NCBI GenBank assembly: GCA_026005175.1
Contig: BPKO01000006.1
Location: 174,906-238,905, forward strand
Direction: 5' to 3'
From: Candidatus Tectimicrobiota bacterium
GTDB taxonomy: Bacteria > Tectomicrobia > Entotheonellia > Entotheonellales > Entotheonellaceae
Length of the DNA: 64,000 nt
Part shown: one piece after another, positions 4,869-14,771 of the stretch
Layout: every line of letters begins with the position of its first letter
Numbering within the stretch: the first letter of the stretch is position 1
Position numbers and translations under genes: made by a program
The notes under the pieces: model-generated
What the model was told of the DNA's origin: nothing
The model's database searches: none
The model's input: the letters and a program-made list of their open reading frames with translations, nothing else

Positions 4869-5898
4869 TGACGAGCCGTTTAACGTGGACTTGCTCGAGC
4901 AACTGCTCGAAGAGCTTGGCTACGAGACGGTAAGCGCCTGCAACGGGCAAGAGGCGCTGGAGAAAGTGGCCGCTGCTGCCCCCGACCTCCTTCTCCTCGA
5001 CGTGATGATGCCGGGGCTGGACGGCTTTGCGGTCTGCCGCCGGCTCAAAGACAACGAAGAGACCCGCCTCATCCCCATCGTCATGATGACCGCGCTGGGA
5101 AGTGTCGAAGACCGCATCAGAGGCATCGAAGCAGGCGCCGACGACTTCCTGACCAAGCCGGTGGACGAGCGCGAGCTCCTGGCGCGGATTCGCACCACCT
5201 TGCGGCTGAAAGAGACGGTGGAGCGCAAGCTCGGGGAGCTGCGCCGCATCAAAGACCACTTCGCCAAGTTCGTGCCGGAAGCGGTCAAACGCCTGGTGGC
5301 GGCCAATCCCGAGGCCCCTGAGCTGGAGAAGCACCCCCGCGACGTCACCGTATTGTTTCTCGATATCAGCGGCTATAGCCACCTGAGCCAGCGGCTGCCC
5401 CCTGCGGTGCTCAACGGCCTGGTGGAGCGCTATTTCTCTGCCTTCCTCGATTGCATCCACGCTGCCGGCGGCGATATCAACGAGACGGCCGGCGATGGCT
5501 TCATGGCCATCTTTCAAGACCCGCAGCACGCGCTCACCGCCGCAGACACCGCCCTGGCACTTCTGGCGGCCACTGAGGCCCTCAACGCCGAAAACGCGGC
5601 GCAGCCCCTCAGCGTGCACATGGGCCTCAACTCCGGCACCGCCCTGGTCGGTTCGACCCGCTTTGAGGGGCTGCGGGGGGCGCGCTGGACGTTTACCGCC
5701 AGCGGCCCAGTCACCAACCTGGCGGCGCGCCTGGCCGGCCTTGCCGCGCCCGGGCAGATTTGCCTCGGCCCGGAGGCGGCGCGCCGCCTTGGCGGCCGCT
5801 ACCGCCTGCGCCGCCTGGGCCAGGTGCATCTGAAGCATCTTGATGCCCCCGTGGAGGTCTATTGCCTCGTGGGTCCCGTCTCAAGAGGCGCGGCGTGA
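4837..5898 (+). CDS. Response regulator with class III adenylate/guanylate cyclase output domain
   Basis: The 353-residue protein has a receiver domain at residues 1-120 (KILIVDDEPFNVDLL; LLLLDVMMPGLDGF; FLTKPVDERELL), then a linker and a class III nucleotide cyclase homology domain near 165-345. The first metal Asp lies in VLFLDISGYSHLS and the second in ETAGDGFMAIF. The transition-state Asn/Arg pair is in NLAARL. The substrate-specifying Lys of adenylate cyclases is replaced by Glu (ETAGD), as in guanylate cyclases. Start 4837 was chosen because GAGGAGGCAGCC precedes it and the conserved receiver begins at once. It overlaps the previous gene by 32 bases. It is probably the output of the preceding kinase and regulator, making cAMP or cGMP. 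Confidence 0.87.
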   Translation: MRRQAKILIVDDEPFNVDLLEQLLEELGYETVSACNGQEALEKVAAAAPDLLLLDVMMPGLDGFAVCRRLKDNEETRLIPIVMMTALGSVEDRIRGIEAGADDFLTKPVDERELLARIRTTLRLKETVERKLGELRRIKDHFAKFVPEAVKRLVAANPEAPELEKHPRDVTVLFLDISGYSHLSQRLPPAVLNGLVERYFSAFLDCIHAAGGDINETAGDGFMAIFQDPQHALTAADTALALLAATEALNAENAAQPLSVHMGLNSGTALVGSTRFEGLRGARWTFTASGPVTNLAARLAGLAAPGQICLGPEAARRLGGRYRLRRLGQVHLKHLDAPVEVYCLVGPVSRGAA

Positions 5899-6794
5899 GC
5901 CGCTGTGCCGTGCCGGCCACACGGCCCGCTCCGCGCTTCTCGAAGGCTTCCAGGGTCCTGTCGCTTTTCCCGCGTCCTCCTGAAGGGCGCCTCTTCCGCC
6001 ACCACCCACCCGTCTTCAGAGGCCGCGCGGCGCAGGCAGCGGGCCAGAGCGGCCAGCGTCGAGGGCGAAAGCGCGCCGCTGCGGCGCAGCCGGGCCAGGA
6101 AGTCGTCGGGCTCCTGGTAGGCCAGGGCACTGATTTCGGCCGCCAGCTGGAACGTCTTGCGGACTTTCTTTGCCATCGCCTGGCTCAGGAGAGGGTGCAA
6201 GAGGCGGGCGACCAGCGCCAGCACGGGATGGTCGATGCGCACGTAGCCGGTAAGCCCGGCCTCGGCGTAGGTGTCCCCACCGTCGCGGTGGTGGCGATAG
6301 TCGAGGATCAGCACGGCGCGGGCACGGATGGTAAGGAGGGCCGTCTCGTAGCTGCCCCAGACGAAGATCACCCGCCGGCCTGCCGCGGCGTGCACCACCG
6401 CGAAGTGGCCTTTCATCCCCCGCGCCTGCCTGCCTTCCGCATCGGCGTAGTCCTGCGCCCGGTAAATCGCTCCTTGCCGCTCGATGCGGTATTGGCTCAG
6501 GCGCAGGGCGCGGGCGACCGCGGTGGCCACGTCGGGATGGTCGAGAAAGTACTCAAAAAGGGGAGGGTGGGAAAGAAAACGAACTCCGATGACGGTGTGG
6601 ACAAACGTTGGGTGGTCGACGACGGTGGCGAGGTCGGCGTGTTCTGCCGGCAGCAGGGGCTGCGGGGCCGAGCCGGCCCAGGCCGCAGCGGCCAGCCCCA
6701 GGCCGGCCCCCACTGCCCACGCGACAGCCCGGCGCAAGCGTCCGCCTGGGCTCTTTTCCCTGCCGCGTCTCGCCCTCCTTGCCTTGCCCGGCAT
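5859..6794 (-). CDS. Conserved-looking exported protein of unknown function
   Basis: I do not recognise the family. The 311-residue product begins with a basic stretch and a hydrophobic segment (AVAWAVGAGLGLAAAAWAGSA, near residues 23-43) that looks like an export signal. A soluble region follows (LSQYRIERQGAIYRAQDYADAEG). Codon use in residues 1-250 matches its neighbours. The last 50 or so residues are low-complexity, Arg/Gly-rich and overlap the convergent cyclase gene by 40 bases, so the true C terminus may differ, perhaps through a frameshift. It lies 33 bases downstream of the dehydratase gene on the same strand and may share its transcript. Confidence 0.55.
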   Translation of the reverse strand: MPGKARRARRGREKSPGGRLRRAVAWAVGAGLGLAAAAWAGSAPQPLLPAEHADLATVVDHPTFVHTVIGVRFLSHPPLFEYFLDHPDVATAVARALRLSQYRIERQGAIYRAQDYADAEGRQARGMKGHFAVVHAAAGRRVIFVWGSYETALLTIRARAVLILDYRHHRDGGDTYAEAGLTGYVRIDHPVLALVARLLHPLLSQAMAKKVRKTFQLAAEISALAYQEPDDFLARLRRSGALSPSTLAALARCLRRAASEDGWVVAEEAPFRRTREKRQDPGSLREARSGPCGRHGTAAHAAPLETGPTRQ

Positions 6795-7871: not shown

Positions 7872-8771
7872 TCAGGCAGCACGCGACACGCGCACATCCA
7901 GCGCATCGCGCAGGCCGTCGCCGATGCAGTTGATGCTCAGCACCGTAACCATGATCGCCAGCCCGGGGAAAATGGCCAGCCACCAGGCAAGCGTAAAAAA
8001 GCCGCGGGCACCGCTCAGAATAAGGCCCCAGGTGGGGGTGGTGATTTTCACCCCCAGCCCCAGGAAGGAAAGCGTCGACTCGGCGAGGATGGCGTAGGAG
8101 ACGCTCACCGTGGCCTGCACGATGAGGGGAGCCAGGCTGTTGGGCAGGAGGTGGCGCAGGATGAGGCGCAGGTCGGAAGCGCCGGTGGCGCGTGCTGCCA
8201 CCACGAACTCTTCCTCGCGCAGGGCCAGCACTTCGGCCCGCGCCAGGCGGGCAAAGTCGTCGATGTAAGCCAGCGCCACGGCCACGATGACGTTGCCCAG
8301 CCCCGGGCCAAGGATGGCCATGAGGCCGACGGCGATGATCAGCGCCGGGAAAGCCCACTGCAAGTCGATGTAGCGCATGATGAGCAAGTCGACCCAGCCC
8401 CCGTAGTAGCCTGCCACCAGCCCCAGGGGTACGGCGGCGAGCATGGCCAGGAGCACGGCAGCAAAGCCCACAGTGAGGGAAATGCGGGCCCCGGCGATGA
8501 GGCGGCTGAGCAAGTCGCGGCCAAACTCGTCGGTGCCCAGGGGGTGTTGCCACGAGGGCGGCGCCAGGAGGTCGAATGCCTGCGCGTTGGGGTCGTACGG
8601 CGACAGCAGCGGCCCCAGCAGCGCGGTGAGCACCAGTCCTCCCAGCACCAGGAAGCCGGCCACCACCTTGACGTCGCGGCGCAAGTAGCGCACCGCCCGC
8701 CGCCACTCGCTGACCGCCGGCGCCGGCGGAGCCGCTGCGGCAGAAACAGAAGACGACACAGCTGGCCTCAT
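7872..8771 (-). CDS. Peptide/nickel-type ABC transporter permease (DppC-like)
   Basis: This is a 299-residue inner-membrane permease of the DppC/OppC type. It has a cytoplasmic N terminus, TM1 near 35-57, the typical LGTDEFGRDLLSRLIAGARISL block near 90-110, and an EAA-type coupling loop (VAARATGASDLRLILRHLLPNSLAPLI). Start 8771 is the ATG that overlaps the stop of the upstream permease gene in an ATGA arrangement, so the two are translationally coupled. With its partner permease and binding protein it forms an importer for peptides or similar substrates. No DppD/DppF ATPase gene accompanies it here. Confidence 0.9.
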   Translation of the reverse strand: MRPAVSSSVSAAAAPPAPAVSEWRRAVRYLRRDVKVVAGFLVLGGLVLTALLGPLLSPYDPNAQAFDLLAPPSWQHPLGTDEFGRDLLSRLIAGARISLTVGFAAVLLAMLAAVPLGLVAGYYGGWVDLLIMRYIDLQWAFPALIIAVGLMAILGPGLGNVIVAVALAYIDDFARLARAEVLALREEEFVVAARATGASDLRLILRHLLPNSLAPLIVQATVSVSYAILAESTLSFLGLGVKITTPTWGLILSGARGFFTLAWWLAIFPGLAIMVTVLSINCIGDGLRDALDVRVSRAA

Positions 8772-9712
8772 TCGTAGCGAATCCGCGGGTTGATGTACGT
8801 GTAAAGGATGTCCACGAGCAGGTTCATGCCCACGAAAATGCCGGCAATGAGCAGGATGGCGCCCTGCACCACGGGGAAGTCGCGGTTGATGATGCTGCGC
8901 ACCAGGGTGCGCCCCAGCCCCTGGATGGCAAACACCTCCTCCACCACCACCGCCCCCACCAGCAGCAGGGAAAAAGCGATGCCGATCACCGTGATCACCG
9001 GGATGAGGGCGTTTTTCAGGGCGTGCTTGAGAATCACCACCCGCTCGCGCAGTCCCTTGGCGCGCGCCGTGCTGATATAGGGGGCGTGCAGCACCTCCAG
9101 CATAGCCGAGCGCGTCATGCGCATGATGATGGCGGCAAAGGCGGTGCCGGAAGTAAACGCCGGCAGCAGCAAGTGGCGCAGCCAGGGCCAAAAGCCTTCG
9201 CTGAGGGGCACGTAGCCCAGGGCGGGCAGCCAGCCCAGCTTCACGGCAAACACCAAGATGAGCACGATGCCCAGCCAGAAGTTGGGCATGCTCAACCCCA
9301 GAAAGGCCACCACGGTGGCCACGTGGTCGGGGAAAGTGTGCTTCTTGAGCGCCGAGACGATCCCCGCCGGGAGGGCCACTGCCAGGCTAATGGCCAGGGC
9401 CAGCACGGCAATGGCAAACGTGCGTGGCGCCGCCTGCCCCAGCAGCACCAGCACCCGCTCGCCGTTGACGATGGAGCGCCCCAGGTCGCCGCGCCCCAGG
9501 TTCCAGAGCCAGAAAACGTACTGCACGTAAAAGGGCCGATCCAGCCCCAGGTTGTGGCGCAGCTGCGCCACCGCCTCCGGGGTGGCCTCCGGGCCGAGCA
9601 TGACGCTCACCGGGTCACCGGGGATGGCGCGCAGCATGAAGAAAACGAGCGTCGCCACCCCCCACATGACGAGCACGGCATAGAGGAGGCGCTTGCAGAG
9701 GTAGCGGCGCAT
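8768..9712 (-). CDS. Peptide/nickel-type ABC transporter permease (DppB-like)
   Basis: The 314-residue product is a six-helix DppB-type permease. It opens with MRRYLCKRLLYAVLVMWGVA and has the family signature RAIPGDPVSVMLGPEATPEAV near residues 29-50. It contains a periplasmic loop with GRGDLGRSI and the coupling loop ARAKGLRERVVILKHALKNALIPVI, and ends in NPRIRYE. It starts 3 bases after the binding-protein gene stops and overlaps the DppC-like gene by 4 bases, so all three form one operon. The substrate is not evident from the permease. Confidence 0.92.
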   Translation of the reverse strand: MRRYLCKRLLYAVLVMWGVATLVFFMLRAIPGDPVSVMLGPEATPEAVAQLRHNLGLDRPFYVQYVFWLWNLGRGDLGRSIVNGERVLVLLGQAAPRTFAIAVLALAISLAVALPAGIVSALKKHTFPDHVATVVAFLGLSMPNFWLGIVLILVFAVKLGWLPALGYVPLSEGFWPWLRHLLLPAFTSGTAFAAIIMRMTRSAMLEVLHAPYISTARAKGLRERVVILKHALKNALIPVITVIGIAFSLLLVGAVVVEEVFAIQGLGRTLVRSIINRDFPVVQGAILLIAGIFVGMNLLVDILYTYINPRIRYE

Positions 9713-9715
9713 CGC

Positions 9716-11362
9716 TCAGGCCAGCCACACCTCACTCAGGTCCCAAGCCGGCGTCGGGGCAAAGACAAAGCCTTTGACTTCCTTGCGCATGGCCAGGTAC
9801 TCGATGAGGTGGTGGGTAAAGGCCATGGGGGCGTCGGCCATGATGAGGTCCTCGGCCCGGTGTACCAAGGCGATGCGCTTTTGCACGTCGAGCTCGCGGA
9901 ACTGCTGCTCGACGAGGGCGTCCACTTCCGGGTTGCTGTAGCCAAAGCTGTTGAACTTGGCCCCGGTTGGGAAAAAGTCGCGGATGGAGTCGTTGGGGTC
10001 GAGGTCGGCGCCGCTACCCCCTAGCAAAGTTTCGAAGTCGCCGGCCACCTGGCGCTTGAAGTAAACCGAAGGGTCGACTTGCTCGATGTCGAGCGTGATG
10101 GGCAGCACCTGCTCCAGCAGCGGCTTGAGCACCTGCGCGCCGCGCAGGTTGCCGCGTACCACCGAGGTGAGCAGTTTTACTTTCAAGGAGCCAACGCCGG
10201 CTTCCTGCCACAGCCGCTTGGCCGCTTCGGGGTCGTAGGCCTGCGGGCTGGTGGTGAGTTTTTCTGGCCGCCAGTAGAGCTTCTGCGCCGCCGGGATGGG
10301 TCCGGTGTCGGGCTGCACGCGGCCAAAGTAGCCGCGCTTGGCCAGCGTCTCGCGGTCGATGGCCTTGGCAATGGCCAGGCGCACCCGCCGGTCGCGAAAC
10401 GCCAGCACCGTCTTCTGGTTGAGGATCAAGGCCTGGAAGCCCGGGTCAGGGCCTTGCAGCACGGTGACGCCAGGGTCGGCTTCCAGCAGGGGCAAAAACT
10501 GCGCCTGCACGTTGTTGAGGAACTGCACCTCGCCGGTGCGCAGCGCCGCCACCGCCGTTTCTGCCTCCGGCACCGGCACGATGGTAACCATGTCCAGCTT
10601 GGGCTTGCCCTCAATGAAGTAGTCGGGGAAGCGCTCCAGCACCAGCCGCTGGCCGACGATGTGCTCTTTGACCCGGAAGGGGCCGGTGCCCACCGGCGTC
10701 ACCTTGTACTGCTGCGGCCCCATTTTCTCGAGCGCCGTGCGGCTGACGATGGTCATCGCCCGCGCCGGAAAGCGCGACAGGGTGGCGATGAGAAACGCCG
10801 CCGAAGGGCTTTTGAGGGTGAACTGTACTTCGTACGCCCCCAGCTTGGTCACCGCCTCGATGTTGGCCAGGCGCGGGCGGTGGATGGAGCCGACTTTGGG
10901 GTCGTTGGTGCGCTGGTACGTAAACAGCACGTCGTCGGCGCTAAACGGGGCGCCGTCGTGAAAGCGGACGCCGCGGCGCAGCTGGAACGTCCACTGGCGG
11001 CCGTCGGCCGAGACCTCCCAGCGCTCGGCCAACTCCGGCTGCGGGGTGAGGGCGGCGTCGATATGCACCAGGCCGCTAAAGATGTTGGCCGCTGCTTGCA
11101 TCTGCTCGGTGACGTTGATAAACGCCGGGTCGAGGATGGCAAACTGGTCGAGGTTCCAGCCTGCCTTGAGGTGGCCACCGCGGCCCGCCGCCGCCAGCGG
11201 TGGCGGCAGGGAGGCCGCCAGGCCCAGCAGGCCGGTGGCCGCCAGCAGGCGCAGCACCGCCCGCCGGCTCATCGGCGGGCCGCTGAGCTCGGCGGCAGTC
11301 AGCCCGAGCATGGGATCGCGCGGGTCAAAGTCCCAAAGGTCGACGAGGTGGTGCGGTGCCAT
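9716..11362 (-). CDS. Extracellular solute-binding protein, family 5 (peptide-type), Tat-exported
   Basis: A 548-residue family 5 binding protein for a peptide/nickel-type importer. A 30-residue leader precedes a twin-arginine motif (MSRRAVLRLLAATG, near residues 31-44), so export is probably by Tat as a folded protein. Mature-domain hallmarks are LAERWEVSADGRQWTFQLRRG, VRFHDGAPFSADDVLFTYQR and VGTGPFRV. Start 11362 was preferred over the internal ATG of MSRRAVL because a strong Shine-Dalgarno site (GGGAGGAAAGCTG) lies directly before it. Two permease genes follow in the same operon. The ligand cannot be read from sequence; small peptides or other amides are typical. Confidence 0.9.
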   Translation of the reverse strand: MAPHHLVDLWDFDPRDPMLGLTAAELSGPPMSRRAVLRLLAATGLLGLAASLPPPLAAAGRGGHLKAGWNLDQFAILDPAFINVTEQMQAAANIFSGLVHIDAALTPQPELAERWEVSADGRQWTFQLRRGVRFHDGAPFSADDVLFTYQRTNDPKVGSIHRPRLANIEAVTKLGAYEVQFTLKSPSAAFLIATLSRFPARAMTIVSRTALEKMGPQQYKVTPVGTGPFRVKEHIVGQRLVLERFPDYFIEGKPKLDMVTIVPVPEAETAVAALRTGEVQFLNNVQAQFLPLLEADPGVTVLQGPDPGFQALILNQKTVLAFRDRRVRLAIAKAIDRETLAKRGYFGRVQPDTGPIPAAQKLYWRPEKLTTSPQAYDPEAAKRLWQEAGVGSLKVKLLTSVVRGNLRGAQVLKPLLEQVLPITLDIEQVDPSVYFKRQVAGDFETLLGGSGADLDPNDSIRDFFPTGAKFNSFGYSNPEVDALVEQQFRELDVQKRIALVHRAEDLIMADAPMAFTHHLIEYLAMRKEVKGFVFAPTPAWDLSEVWLA

Positions 11363-11451: not shown

Positions 11452-11506
11452 CGCGGCATCAGAGAAACCGGGCGCCGCGCGGCGGCGCCCTGCAGAGGAG
11501 CAGACC

Positions 11507-12007
11507 ATGGCAACGCCCCAGCCCGAGCCGCAGCCCATGCGGCGCGAGATCGTGTTTACCGCCGAAGTGCAGACGCTGACGCCCATGCTTAAAGTGGCCA
11601 CCGTGAGCCGCCAGGGGCAAGACCATTACACGTTTGCCTGCGACGAGGGTCCGGCCCTGGGCGGGCTGGGCTCGGCCCCCACGCCGCTGGCTTACTTTAC
11701 CGCCGCCGTGGCTTTTTGACTGCTGACGCAGGTGTCCCGGTACGGGCACATGCTCAACCTGCGCGTCGACAAGGCGCGCGTGCACGTGGAAGCCACCTTT
11801 CGCCTCAGCGGCTCGGTGCTCGCCGACACCGTGCAGGCCGAGGCGGTCGGCGTCACCACCCGCCTGGAGCTCGAGTCTCCCGAAGACCCGGCACGCCTGG
11901 CACGCCTGGTGCGGCTGGCCGAGCGCGGCTGCTTCGTCATGCAGGCCCTGCAGCGGCCGGTGCCGGTGACCACCGCCACCCTGGTCAACGGCACCCCTCT
12001 GGCCTGA
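11507..12007 (+). CDS. OsmC-like protein, candidate selenoprotein (Sec at codon 71)
   Basis: Read through one in-frame TGA (11717-11719), this is a 166-residue OsmC/Ohr-superfamily protein, a group of thiol-dependent peroxidases and related proteins. The two halves are in the same frame with no shift. The TGA sits in AVAF-U-LLTQVSRYGHML, where relatives carry the conserved redox cysteine. The second conserved cysteine is present at about residue 142 (AERGCFVMQAL). A hairpin with bacterial SECIS features follows the TGA at 11732-11749. The ATG has AGAGGAG upstream. I therefore read TGA as selenocysteine rather than a stop. The alternatives are a Cys-to-stop point error or a decayed gene. No selA, selB, selC or selD gene lies in the window, so they would have to be elsewhere. 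Confidence 0.75.
11732..11749 (+). promoter_or_regulatory. SECIS-like hairpin downstream of the in-frame UGA
   Basis: The RNA can fold as GUG-U-CCCG-GUA-CGGG-CAC. This is a 3-bp lower stem, one bulged U, a 4-bp upper stem and a loop beginning with GU. The order bulged U, four bases, then GU is the same as in the E. coli fdhF SECIS element recognised by SelB. The hairpin starts 12 bases after the UGA, within the usual distance. Confidence 0.7.
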
Positions 12008-12009
12008 GG

Positions 12010-13864
12010 CTAGGCCGGCACCTCCAGGCCGTAGGCGGCGATCTGCGCCTCGAAGGCCTCGAAGACGCGGCGGCGCAGCTCGGCCATAAACTCCGGGGTG
12101 ATAAAGTGCGGCAGCTGCACGTTGGGGTTGCGCTGGTAGGCGCGCGCCGGCAGGTCGTAGTCCTCGAGCGTCGTGCCTTGGCGGCGCTCCAGCAGCAAGC
12201 CGCGCAGGTAAGTGCGCTGCGTGGCGTGCCACAGGTCGTCGTGGGTAATGTCCAGGCCGTAGACCTCTTTGAAGACCGGCTCGATCACCCGGTCGGGGGT
12301 GCCGGCGAACTTGCACAGCCCCAGCAAGTCGTCGCGGGTGTAGTAAATGCCGCGGTTGACGATGGCATCCACCCAGTAGTCAAGGTCGGTCTTGCCTTCA
12401 AAGACCAGCAGCAAGAAGGTGCGCATCGACATGTGGCCGCCGGCAATAGCAAAGGGGTAGCCGGGGTTGGTTTCCGGCAAGTACGCGGGCAACTCCAGCC
12501 CCTTGCAGTGCATGGCATACGCCGTCTCGCCCAGAGACTCGGCCAGGCGCTTGACGCCGCGCCCGAGCTCTGGCAGCTCGCCAGCAGCAGCGCGGCGAAT
12601 GAGGCGGCAGGGCCCCCTGCGAAGTCGCCAAAGGTAACGCCCTCGAGGATGGGGCGCTCGGGGTGCTGGCGGTTGTAGTCCATGACGTAGCCCAGGGTGG
12701 CCCCCAGGCTGATGGCGTCAAAGCCCAGCTGGTCGACCAGCTCGATGATCTCCAGAGCCTGCTGCTGGTCGTAGATTCCCAGGTTGATGGCCAGCAGGTC
12801 GACAGGCTCGTAGTCGACTTTGGTGTAGAACTTGCCCGCCTTGCGCTGCCCGTTGACCGGCACCGCCTCGTAGACGTTCTTGTGGCAGGCGATGCCGCAC
12901 TTGAAGCACGACTCGTCTTTGATCACGTAATTTTGTTCGACCGAGCTGCGGTAAAGGGCCACCGGCTTGTCGTCGCCCTGCGGCCAGAAGTTTTTCTCGG
13001 GCAGCGCCCCCAGGGGGTGCAGGGCCGGCCACGTTGCGCCAGGTGCCGCCGGCGCCGCCGCCCTTGTCTGGATCGCGGTAGTTGCGCGAGCCTTCGCCGC
13101 GGCTGATTTCCCGATTGGCCGCCAGCAGCGAGGGGGCCAGCTTGCCGCGCTTGGGATCGGGGGGCCTGAGCAACGATGGCGATGAGGTTCTTCGAGCCCA
13201 TAAGACTGCCCATGCCACCGCGGCCGGCAAAGCGCGGCTTGCAGTCGCGGCTCTGCAGCTCGTTGACGGTGCTGCAGGCAATGGCGGCGTAGTAGTTCTG
13301 CGACCAGTGCTCGCCTGCCGGCCCCAGCACCGCCATGTGGGCATCGGGGTAGCGGTCGGCCAGCCACAGAATCTTCTCGTGGGTGGTCTTGCCCAGCAAT
13401 TCCGTGGCGTCTTCAAACGCCACCGTGGGCGTGCCGCCCTGGGAGCCGATGACCAGGTAGACGGGACGGGCGGCGCGGCCCGTAAAGATCACCTCGTCGG
13501 CGCCGGTGGCGGCGAGCTTGGTGCCGAACTTGCCCGAGGCCGCCGACCACATGGCCAGGGGGCGGCCGTTTTTGGCCACTTTGAGAGGGCTGTAGCCGGA
13601 GAAGAAAACGCGTAGGCCGGTCATCAGATCGGTGCCGGTAAACACGCCGGTGTTCATGATGAGCGGCACTTCAGGAGCAAAGGGGTCGCTGACCCGGTAA
13701 GCGCCCAAGAGCTTGAAGGCGCGGCCAATGCCGCCCAGAAAGTCCTCAAGGTCGGCACAGACCACCGTCTCCTGGCGCACGCGGGCCTGCGTCAAGTCGA
13801 TGGTGAGGCGCCGGAAGCGGTAGTCGCCGATTTGTTTGCGCGCGCTCGTGCTCTCTGTCCACAT
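12010..13864 (-). CDS. Aldehyde:ferredoxin oxidoreductase (tungsten-type), interrupted by three frameshifts
   Basis: Joined across three frame changes, this encodes about 617 residues, the normal length for the AOR family. AOR enzymes oxidise aldehydes to acids with a tungstopterin and one 4Fe-4S cluster. The N-terminal part contains GRGGMGSLMGSKNL, the middle part has SRNYRDPDKGGGAGGTW and the cluster motif CFKCGIAC, and the C-terminal part has the remaining ligand in LLGLCKFAG. Frame changes lie near 13165-13175, 13020-13035 and 12570-12610. The first two fit a +1 base and the third a -1 base. Start 13864 has GGGAG about 10 bases upstream. The gene is divergent from the aldolase. It is either a sequencing-damaged functional gene or a pseudogene; the smooth join favours the former. 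Confidence 0.82.
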
Positions 13865-13894
13865 AAGTGGGATGCTCCCTTGCAAGGTCCAGCC

Positions 13895-13935
13895 AAACCG
13901 TGGTAAAGGGGCTCTGTCGTAATGTTTACCGGTTT
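13895..13935. promoter_or_regulatory. Inverted repeat between the divergent AOR and aldolase genes
   Basis: Arms at 13895-13907 (AAACCGTGGTAAA) and 13925-13935 (TTTACCGGTTT) are complementary apart from a two-base insert in the left arm. They are separated by 17 bases and lie between two divergent starts, as an operator for a dimeric regulator would. No regulator gene lies next to them. Confidence 0.4.
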
Positions 13936-13979
13936 CCCCCGGGCGCGTCAATGCGCCGGAGTCTGCAGAGGAGAACGCG

Positions 13980-14771
13980 ATGCGCGCCAACACGCTGAAG
14001 GCCATCTGGCGCCAGGGCGGCGTGGTGCTCAACGGCTGGCTCTCCATCCCCAGCGCCTTTGCCGCCGAAGTCATGGCACACCAGGGCTTTGACTCGCTCA
14101 CCATCGACTTGCAGCACGGCGTCATCGACTACCAGACCGCGGTCAGCATGCTGCAGGCCATTGCCACCACGCCGGTGGTGCCGCTGGTGCGCGTGCCCTG
14201 GAACGAGCCGGCGCTGATCATGAAGCTGCTCGACGCCGGGGCTTACGGCGTCATCTGTCCCATGGTCAATAGCGCCGAGCAGGCCGAGGCGCTGGTGCAG
14301 GCCTGCAAGTACCCGCCGCGCGGCTACCGCAGCTGGGGGCCGGTGCGTGCCTTGCTTTATGCGGGCACCGACTACGCCGAGCACGCCAACGACGAGCTGC
14401 TGGTCATCCCCATGATCGAAACCGCCACCGCCCTGGCGCAGCTCGACGCCATTCTCAGCGTTCCCGGCATCGACGCCGTCTACGTGGGGCCCTCTGACCT
14501 CAGCCTGGCGCTGGGCCGCGCGCCGCGCCTCGACCAGAGCGACCCCGAGGTGGTGGCCGCCCAGCAGCAAATCGTCGCCGCCTGCCAGCGCCACGGCATC
14601 GTCGCCGGCATCCACAATGCCACCGTCGAGTACGCGCAGCAAATGATCGCCGCCGGCTATCGCTTCATCACCGTTGCCTCCGACAGCCGCTTTCTCGCCG
14701 CCAAGGCGGCCGAAGTGGTGGCCGCCCTGCGCCAGGCCAAAACCCCCGCGGGCAGGCAGCCGGCATACTGA
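13980..14771 (+). CDS. HpcH/HpaI family aldolase
   Basis: The 263-residue protein belongs to the HpcH/HpaI class II pyruvate aldolases, which cleave or form 2-oxo-3-deoxy acids. Visible hallmarks are the N-terminal LKAIWRQGGVVLNGWLSIPS, the DLQHG segment (near residue 40), an Arg in VRVPWNEPALIMKLLDAGAYGVICPMV, the metal-binding Glu in PMIETATALAQLD, and the metal-binding Asp in VYVGPSDLSLALG. The length is normal. The ATG follows CAGAGGAGAACGCG. It is divergent from the aldehyde oxidoreductase and might supply or consume an aldehyde for it, which is inference. The substrate (4-hydroxy-2-oxoheptanedioate, 2-keto-3-deoxyrhamnonate or other) is not determinable here. Confidence 0.9.
   Translation: MRANTLKAIWRQGGVVLNGWLSIPSAFAAEVMAHQGFDSLTIDLQHGVIDYQTAVSMLQAIATTPVVPLVRVPWNEPALIMKLLDAGAYGVICPMVNSAEQAEALVQACKYPPRGYRSWGPVRALLYAGTDYAEHANDELLVIPMIETATALAQLDAILSVPGIDAVYVGPSDLSLALGRAPRLDQSDPEVVAAQQQIVAACQRHGIVAGIHNATVEYAQQMIAAGYRFITVASDSRFLAAKAAEVVAALRQAKTPAGRQPAY

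Follow-up and report, generated by a model that had tools for sequence, protein, structure and literature searches.

An OsmC-fold gene with an in-frame UGA and a downstream SECIS hairpin in Candidatus Tectimicrobiota very probably encodes a selenium-containing redox protein

The window analysed here, 64,000 nucleotides of contig BPKO01000006.1 of a Candidatus Tectimicrobiota bacterium (assembly GCA_026005175.1), contains a gene at 11507-12007 (OsmC_like_Se) that very probably encodes a selenium-containing redox protein. We are highly confident that this is an OsmC-fold selenoprotein, in which the UGA at 11717 is decoded as selenocysteine 71 (Sec71) via SelB and a downstream hairpin, and we infer that Sec is inserted at this codon in cells. 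A gene that ordinary annotation would split in two is read here as an intact selenoprotein gene. The features of the locus are as follows:

8768-9712, opposite strand: ABC peptide transporter permease, upstream of OsmC_like_Se
9716-11362, opposite strand: ABC peptide transporter binding protein, upstream of OsmC_like_Se
11470-11490, strand not applicable: GC inverted repeat with perfect 9-bp arms, presumably within the 5' leader, immediately 5' of the Shine-Dalgarno-like sequence
11495-11500, + strand: Shine-Dalgarno-like GAGGAG, from the sequence, shortly 5' of the ATG
11507-12007, + strand: OsmC_like_Se gene, from translation, Pfam OsmC and NCBIfam NF041052
11639-11641, + strand: Cys45 in a CDEG motif, third conserved thiol, from alignment
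11717-11719, + strand: in-frame UGA, Sec71 of the UxxT motif, from TGA at this codon across homologues
11732-11749, + strand: bacterial SECIS hairpin, from its fold and compensatory pairs in relatives
11930-11932, + strand: Cys142 in a GCF motif, predicted resolving Cys, from alignment
12010-14125, - strand: aldehyde ferredoxin oxidoreductase (AOR) gene, downstream, tail to tail

The original prediction of an OsmC-like gene open in a single frame save for one TGA at a Cys site is borne out by translation: the sole in-frame stop in 11507-12007 on the + strand is the TGA at 11717-11719, and residue 71 falls where the OsmC fold has its conserved active-site Cys. With this TGA read as Sec, the product has 166 amino acids and contains AVAFULLTQVSRYGHML, in which U71-L-L-T74 forms the UxxT motif. 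The protein matches Pfam OsmC (PF02566; E 9e-16, 58.6 bits against a cut-off of 27.5) and, over model positions 2-144 of 144, the NCBIfam model NF041052, "OsmC-related (seleno)protein" (E 4.4e-51, 172.6 bits against a curated cut-off of 95 bits). A scan with the sigma-70 consensus found no promoter for the gene.

The UGA is kept throughout the close relatives of the gene. Homologues 46-49% identical to it were found in two of 98 sampled genomes, each having a single in-frame TGA, again at this codon, and all relatives at 45-50% identity, from Tectomicrobia and Binatia/Deltaproteobacteria bins, keep the TGA and conserve the frame 3' of it to the C-terminus. A contig scan returned 16 loci; the nine in Candidatus Tectomicrobia, Candidatus Binatia and Deltaproteobacteria bins all have TGA, and the remaining seven, alphaproteobacterial (Pseudovibrio, Maritimibacter, Filomicrobium), all have TGC. 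Among 386 genomes searched with NF041052, 10 of the 11 matches above the cut-off, in six genomes, carry one TGA. All six of these genomes have selA or selB: selA is present in five, and G035, an 86% complete bin in which selA was not found, has selB; selA occurs in 171 of the 386 genomes overall. Ranking by the A1 profile gives the same division, as homologues at or above 129 bits all have TGA and the next group, at or below 100 bits, has Cys. In the class of genome G141, the family is present in 18/18 genomes at 1-11 copies each, with one TGA in 73 of 73 matches. Neither the A1 ranking nor the G141-class survey turned up a close-clade member in which Cys replaces Sec, and a close clade that is all Sec suggests strong selection for selenium in the protein. 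A weak match in G039 (L029) was set aside, its in-frame TGA lying off the UxxT site.

In four genomes (G278, G367, G101 and G065), UGA also takes the place of the corresponding Cys codon in other OsmC subfamilies. The loci L083, L086, L087 and L088 belong to such subfamilies, with the Sec-site motifs GAUTSMT, GSUMSMT and AGUGLYT, and apparently represent separate Cys/Sec exchanges. The most interesting by-product of the survey is the copy-number expansion of Sec-OsmC genes in G141-class genomes (for example, L077-L082 and L093-L120).

The machinery for selenocysteine is encoded in the genome that contains the window, an assembly of 14 contigs totalling 3.99 Mb with a completeness rating of 77%. 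The original prediction had been made to depend on selB and selC being present, and selA, selB, tRNA-Sec and selD were all found. The selA gene (637.8 bits) adjoins selB (391.5 bits) on contig C3 of the same assembly, and a tRNA-Sec lies ~7 kb from the pair (76.5 bits; gathering score 47), called by ARAGORN as tRNA-SeC with the anticodon tca (UCA). On contig C9, selD (L007 / L090) scores above its cut-off. A single TGA interrupts its frame within ACAGUASK, where SelD proteins are known to have Sec or Cys. This selD is a selenoprotein gene in its own right, to which OsmC_like_Se adds a second in the genome. A search for formate dehydrogenase returned no UGA-containing FdhF, only matches without an internal stop.

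Two other explanations of the UGA were weighed. One is that the gene is a pseudogene, an ordinary Cys-type OsmC gene in which the TGA arose by nonsense mutation or by an error of sequencing. In its favour, the assembly is error-prone and incomplete, and the adjacent AOR gene is spread over three frames, the pattern that indel errors would give. The original prediction had described nearly all other interruptions in the window as indels, which fits the AOR gene, the one checked. Nevertheless, TGA stands at this codon in independently assembled genomes of Tectomicrobia, of Binatia/Deltaproteobacteria bins and of the G141 class, TGC and TGT never occur there among close members, and relatives diverged to 45-50% identity retain the frame beyond it. 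Because independent relatives keep the TGA, sequencing error is excluded as the explanation, in agreement with the earlier judgement that random error would hardly explain a lone TGA at a Cys site together with a matching hairpin, and we consider a pseudogene very improbable. We attach almost no weight to a reassigned UGA (for example, to Trp or Gly) or to simple read-through in this genome, with which a single frame open across the UGA would also be compatible: OsmC_like_Se itself terminates in TGA (12005-12007), so the UGA code is not reassigned; selA, selB, selD and tRNA-Sec are present; and homologues have Cys at the residue-71 site, not Trp or Gly. Decoding as Sec is the reading that we retain.

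The hairpin starts 12 nt after the TGA. Its outer stem pairs GTG (11732-11734) with CAC (11747-11749), with U 11735 bulged, and its core stem pairs CCCG (11736-11739) with CGGG (11743-11746) around the loop GUA (11740-11742). Taken alone, the window hairpin is no better than chance against dinucleotide shuffles (z -0.8 to -1.4, on short stretches), and under synonymous recoding P is ~0.11 for four core pairs with the G-U loop and ~0.17 for the energy; it is significant only because of the comparison with relatives. The original prediction rested in part on resemblance to the fdhF element: the bulged U, four pairs, GU loop and 12-nt spacing all stand, but the likeness of a single hairpin is weak evidence. 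Among 24 distinct gap-free family sequences, a six-pair helix (columns 18-23 with 27-32) is paired in 94% of cells, and both sides have changed in 20 cells against 4.9 +/- 1.7 in shuffles. Pairs 20:30 (C-G, G-C, A-U) and 21:29 (G-C, C-G) change only on both sides together. The covariation score is 0.451 against 0.111 +/- 0.031 when shuffled, reached in 0 of 500 shuffles, counts that are not probabilities as the sequences are related; slid controls gave at most 0.22. The GU of the loop is fixed across the 24 sequences, and 43 of 44 Sec members use CGG as the Arg codon from which the first loop base comes. Of seven Cys homologues, six have at most one pair of the helix at the hairpin positions. 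The Maritimibacter locus L045 (near 5643-5945) has Cys (TGC), yet all six pairs are found at the SECIS position, perhaps as a relic of a Sec ancestor or by chance. Rfam searches near the gene gave chance matches only.

The AlphaFold2 model, built from a 14-sequence alignment, adopts the OsmC fold (mean pLDDT 84.8, pTM 0.79) and places Sec71 in a central helix (residues 60-82). Its best structural match is 3cje (Z 17.3, 133 residues, 2.7 Å), followed by OsmC/Ohr entries with Z of 10-12. We compared 44 distinct Sec members, chosen as having U followed by x-x-T/S/V. Sec71, Thr74 and Cys142 are kept in 44/44, which upholds the earlier observation that a second conserved Cys near residue 142 is retained; its equivalent is also present in Cys homologues and aligns with a Cys of 3cje and of 2onf. 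Cys45 is Cys in 41 of the 44 and Ser in three, and is invariant in alignment A4. In the proposed mechanism, SelB with Sec-tRNA(UCA) would dock on the hairpin starting 12 nt past the UGA, and the UGA at 11717 would be decoded as Sec71. Located in the central helix at the reactive-Cys site of OsmC/Ohr proteins, Sec71 would most likely attack an oxidised substrate as the nucleophile; Cys142 would then resolve it by way of a selenenylsulfide, possibly with help from Cys45. The selenenylsulfide pair had been suggested before as a possibility, and soundly; the Sec/Cys pair is kept in the family. Both the proposed redox cycle and the substrate type are read from the fold and conservation, and a peroxide is a possible substrate.

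In Ohr enzymes, the catalytic triad Arg-Glu-Cys corresponds to Arg19, Glu51 and Cys61 in XfOhr, where the Glu precedes the peroxidatic Cys by 10 residues, and for certain superfamily members, such as YhfA, no activity is known (PMC5962072). The Sec protein might work as a classical Ohr/OsmC organic-hydroperoxide peroxidase, which we hold as a tentative and somewhat doubtful possibility: the fold is that of OsmC/Ohr proteins, with Sec in the place of the reactive Cys and a second Cys at the resolving-Cys site, but at the equivalent of Glu51, 10 residues before Sec, 32 of the 44 Sec members have Leu and the other 12 have Met, and NCBIfam puts the protein in a separate OsmC-related family. As the family lacks the Glu of the Ohr triad, peroxidase activity should not be assumed. 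Sec may otherwise be used for something other than peroxide reduction, for example, in a protein that partners a catabolic oxidoreductase as a reductase or in thiol transfer. The expanded class points in this direction, as several of its genomes have the gene together with one or both of a TcuA-like FAD dehydrogenase gene and a 2-hydroxyacid dehydrogenase gene, but that class has no neighbour in common with the window or with the Tectomicrobia and Binatia loci, and we think this use unlikely. Bolder still, and quite improbable in our estimate, is the proposal that the Sec-fixed OsmC clade, with up to 11 copies per genome in one class, comprises selenium-dependent redox enzymes that work with catabolic dehydrogenases and are not peroxide scavengers, the window gene being an isolated single-copy member.

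A conserved gene neighbour was sought at the family loci and was not found outside the G141 class. Within that class, Sec-OsmC adjoins a TcuA-like FAD dehydrogenase and/or a D-2-hydroxyacid dehydrogenase at L080, L096, L101 and L077, and a functional link with these dehydrogenases is possible. A translational GTPase beside family member L110, which at first looked SelB-like, is TypA.

The SECIS of E. coli fdhF has a bulged U, an upper stem of four pairs and GU in the loop, and lies in the coding region right after the UGA. The window hairpin shares all of these features, being likewise coding and just past the UGA; unlike the fdhF element, it has a loop of three (GUA) and a C-G rich core, and the position of the bulge shifts among family members. 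In the case of the protein, the closest solved structure is 3cje (Jann_2040, an OsmC-like protein of Jannaschia), with 26% identity over 133 residues; the two active-site positions, both Cys in 3cje, and the Pro-Leu before the helix are kept, whereas 3cje has Cys in place of Sec and no Cys at the Cys45 position. Compared with Ohr/OsmC organic hydroperoxide peroxidases, the fold and the two active-site positions are the same, but Sec replaces Cys, Leu or Met stands where Ohr has its catalytic Glu, and the identity is only 12-21%. Our literature search found nothing uniting OsmC, peroxidatic cysteine and selenocysteine. The statement in the original prediction that OsmC-like selenoproteins had been described from other bacteria was correct: they were reported with a UxxT motif from the Sargasso Sea in 2005 (PMC1088965) and again in GOS metagenome data (PMC2398784), and reviews published in 2022 and 2026 include them (PMC9312934, PMC13188914). 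Like the Sargasso Sea and GOS proteins (PMC1088965, PMC2398784), the window protein belongs to the OsmC family and has Sec where the reactive Cys would be, a UxxT motif and a SECIS directly 3'; it differs in coming from another organism, here with a genome containing the whole Sec machinery. The window gene is a further member of the known OsmC-like selenoproteins, with no difference of kind.
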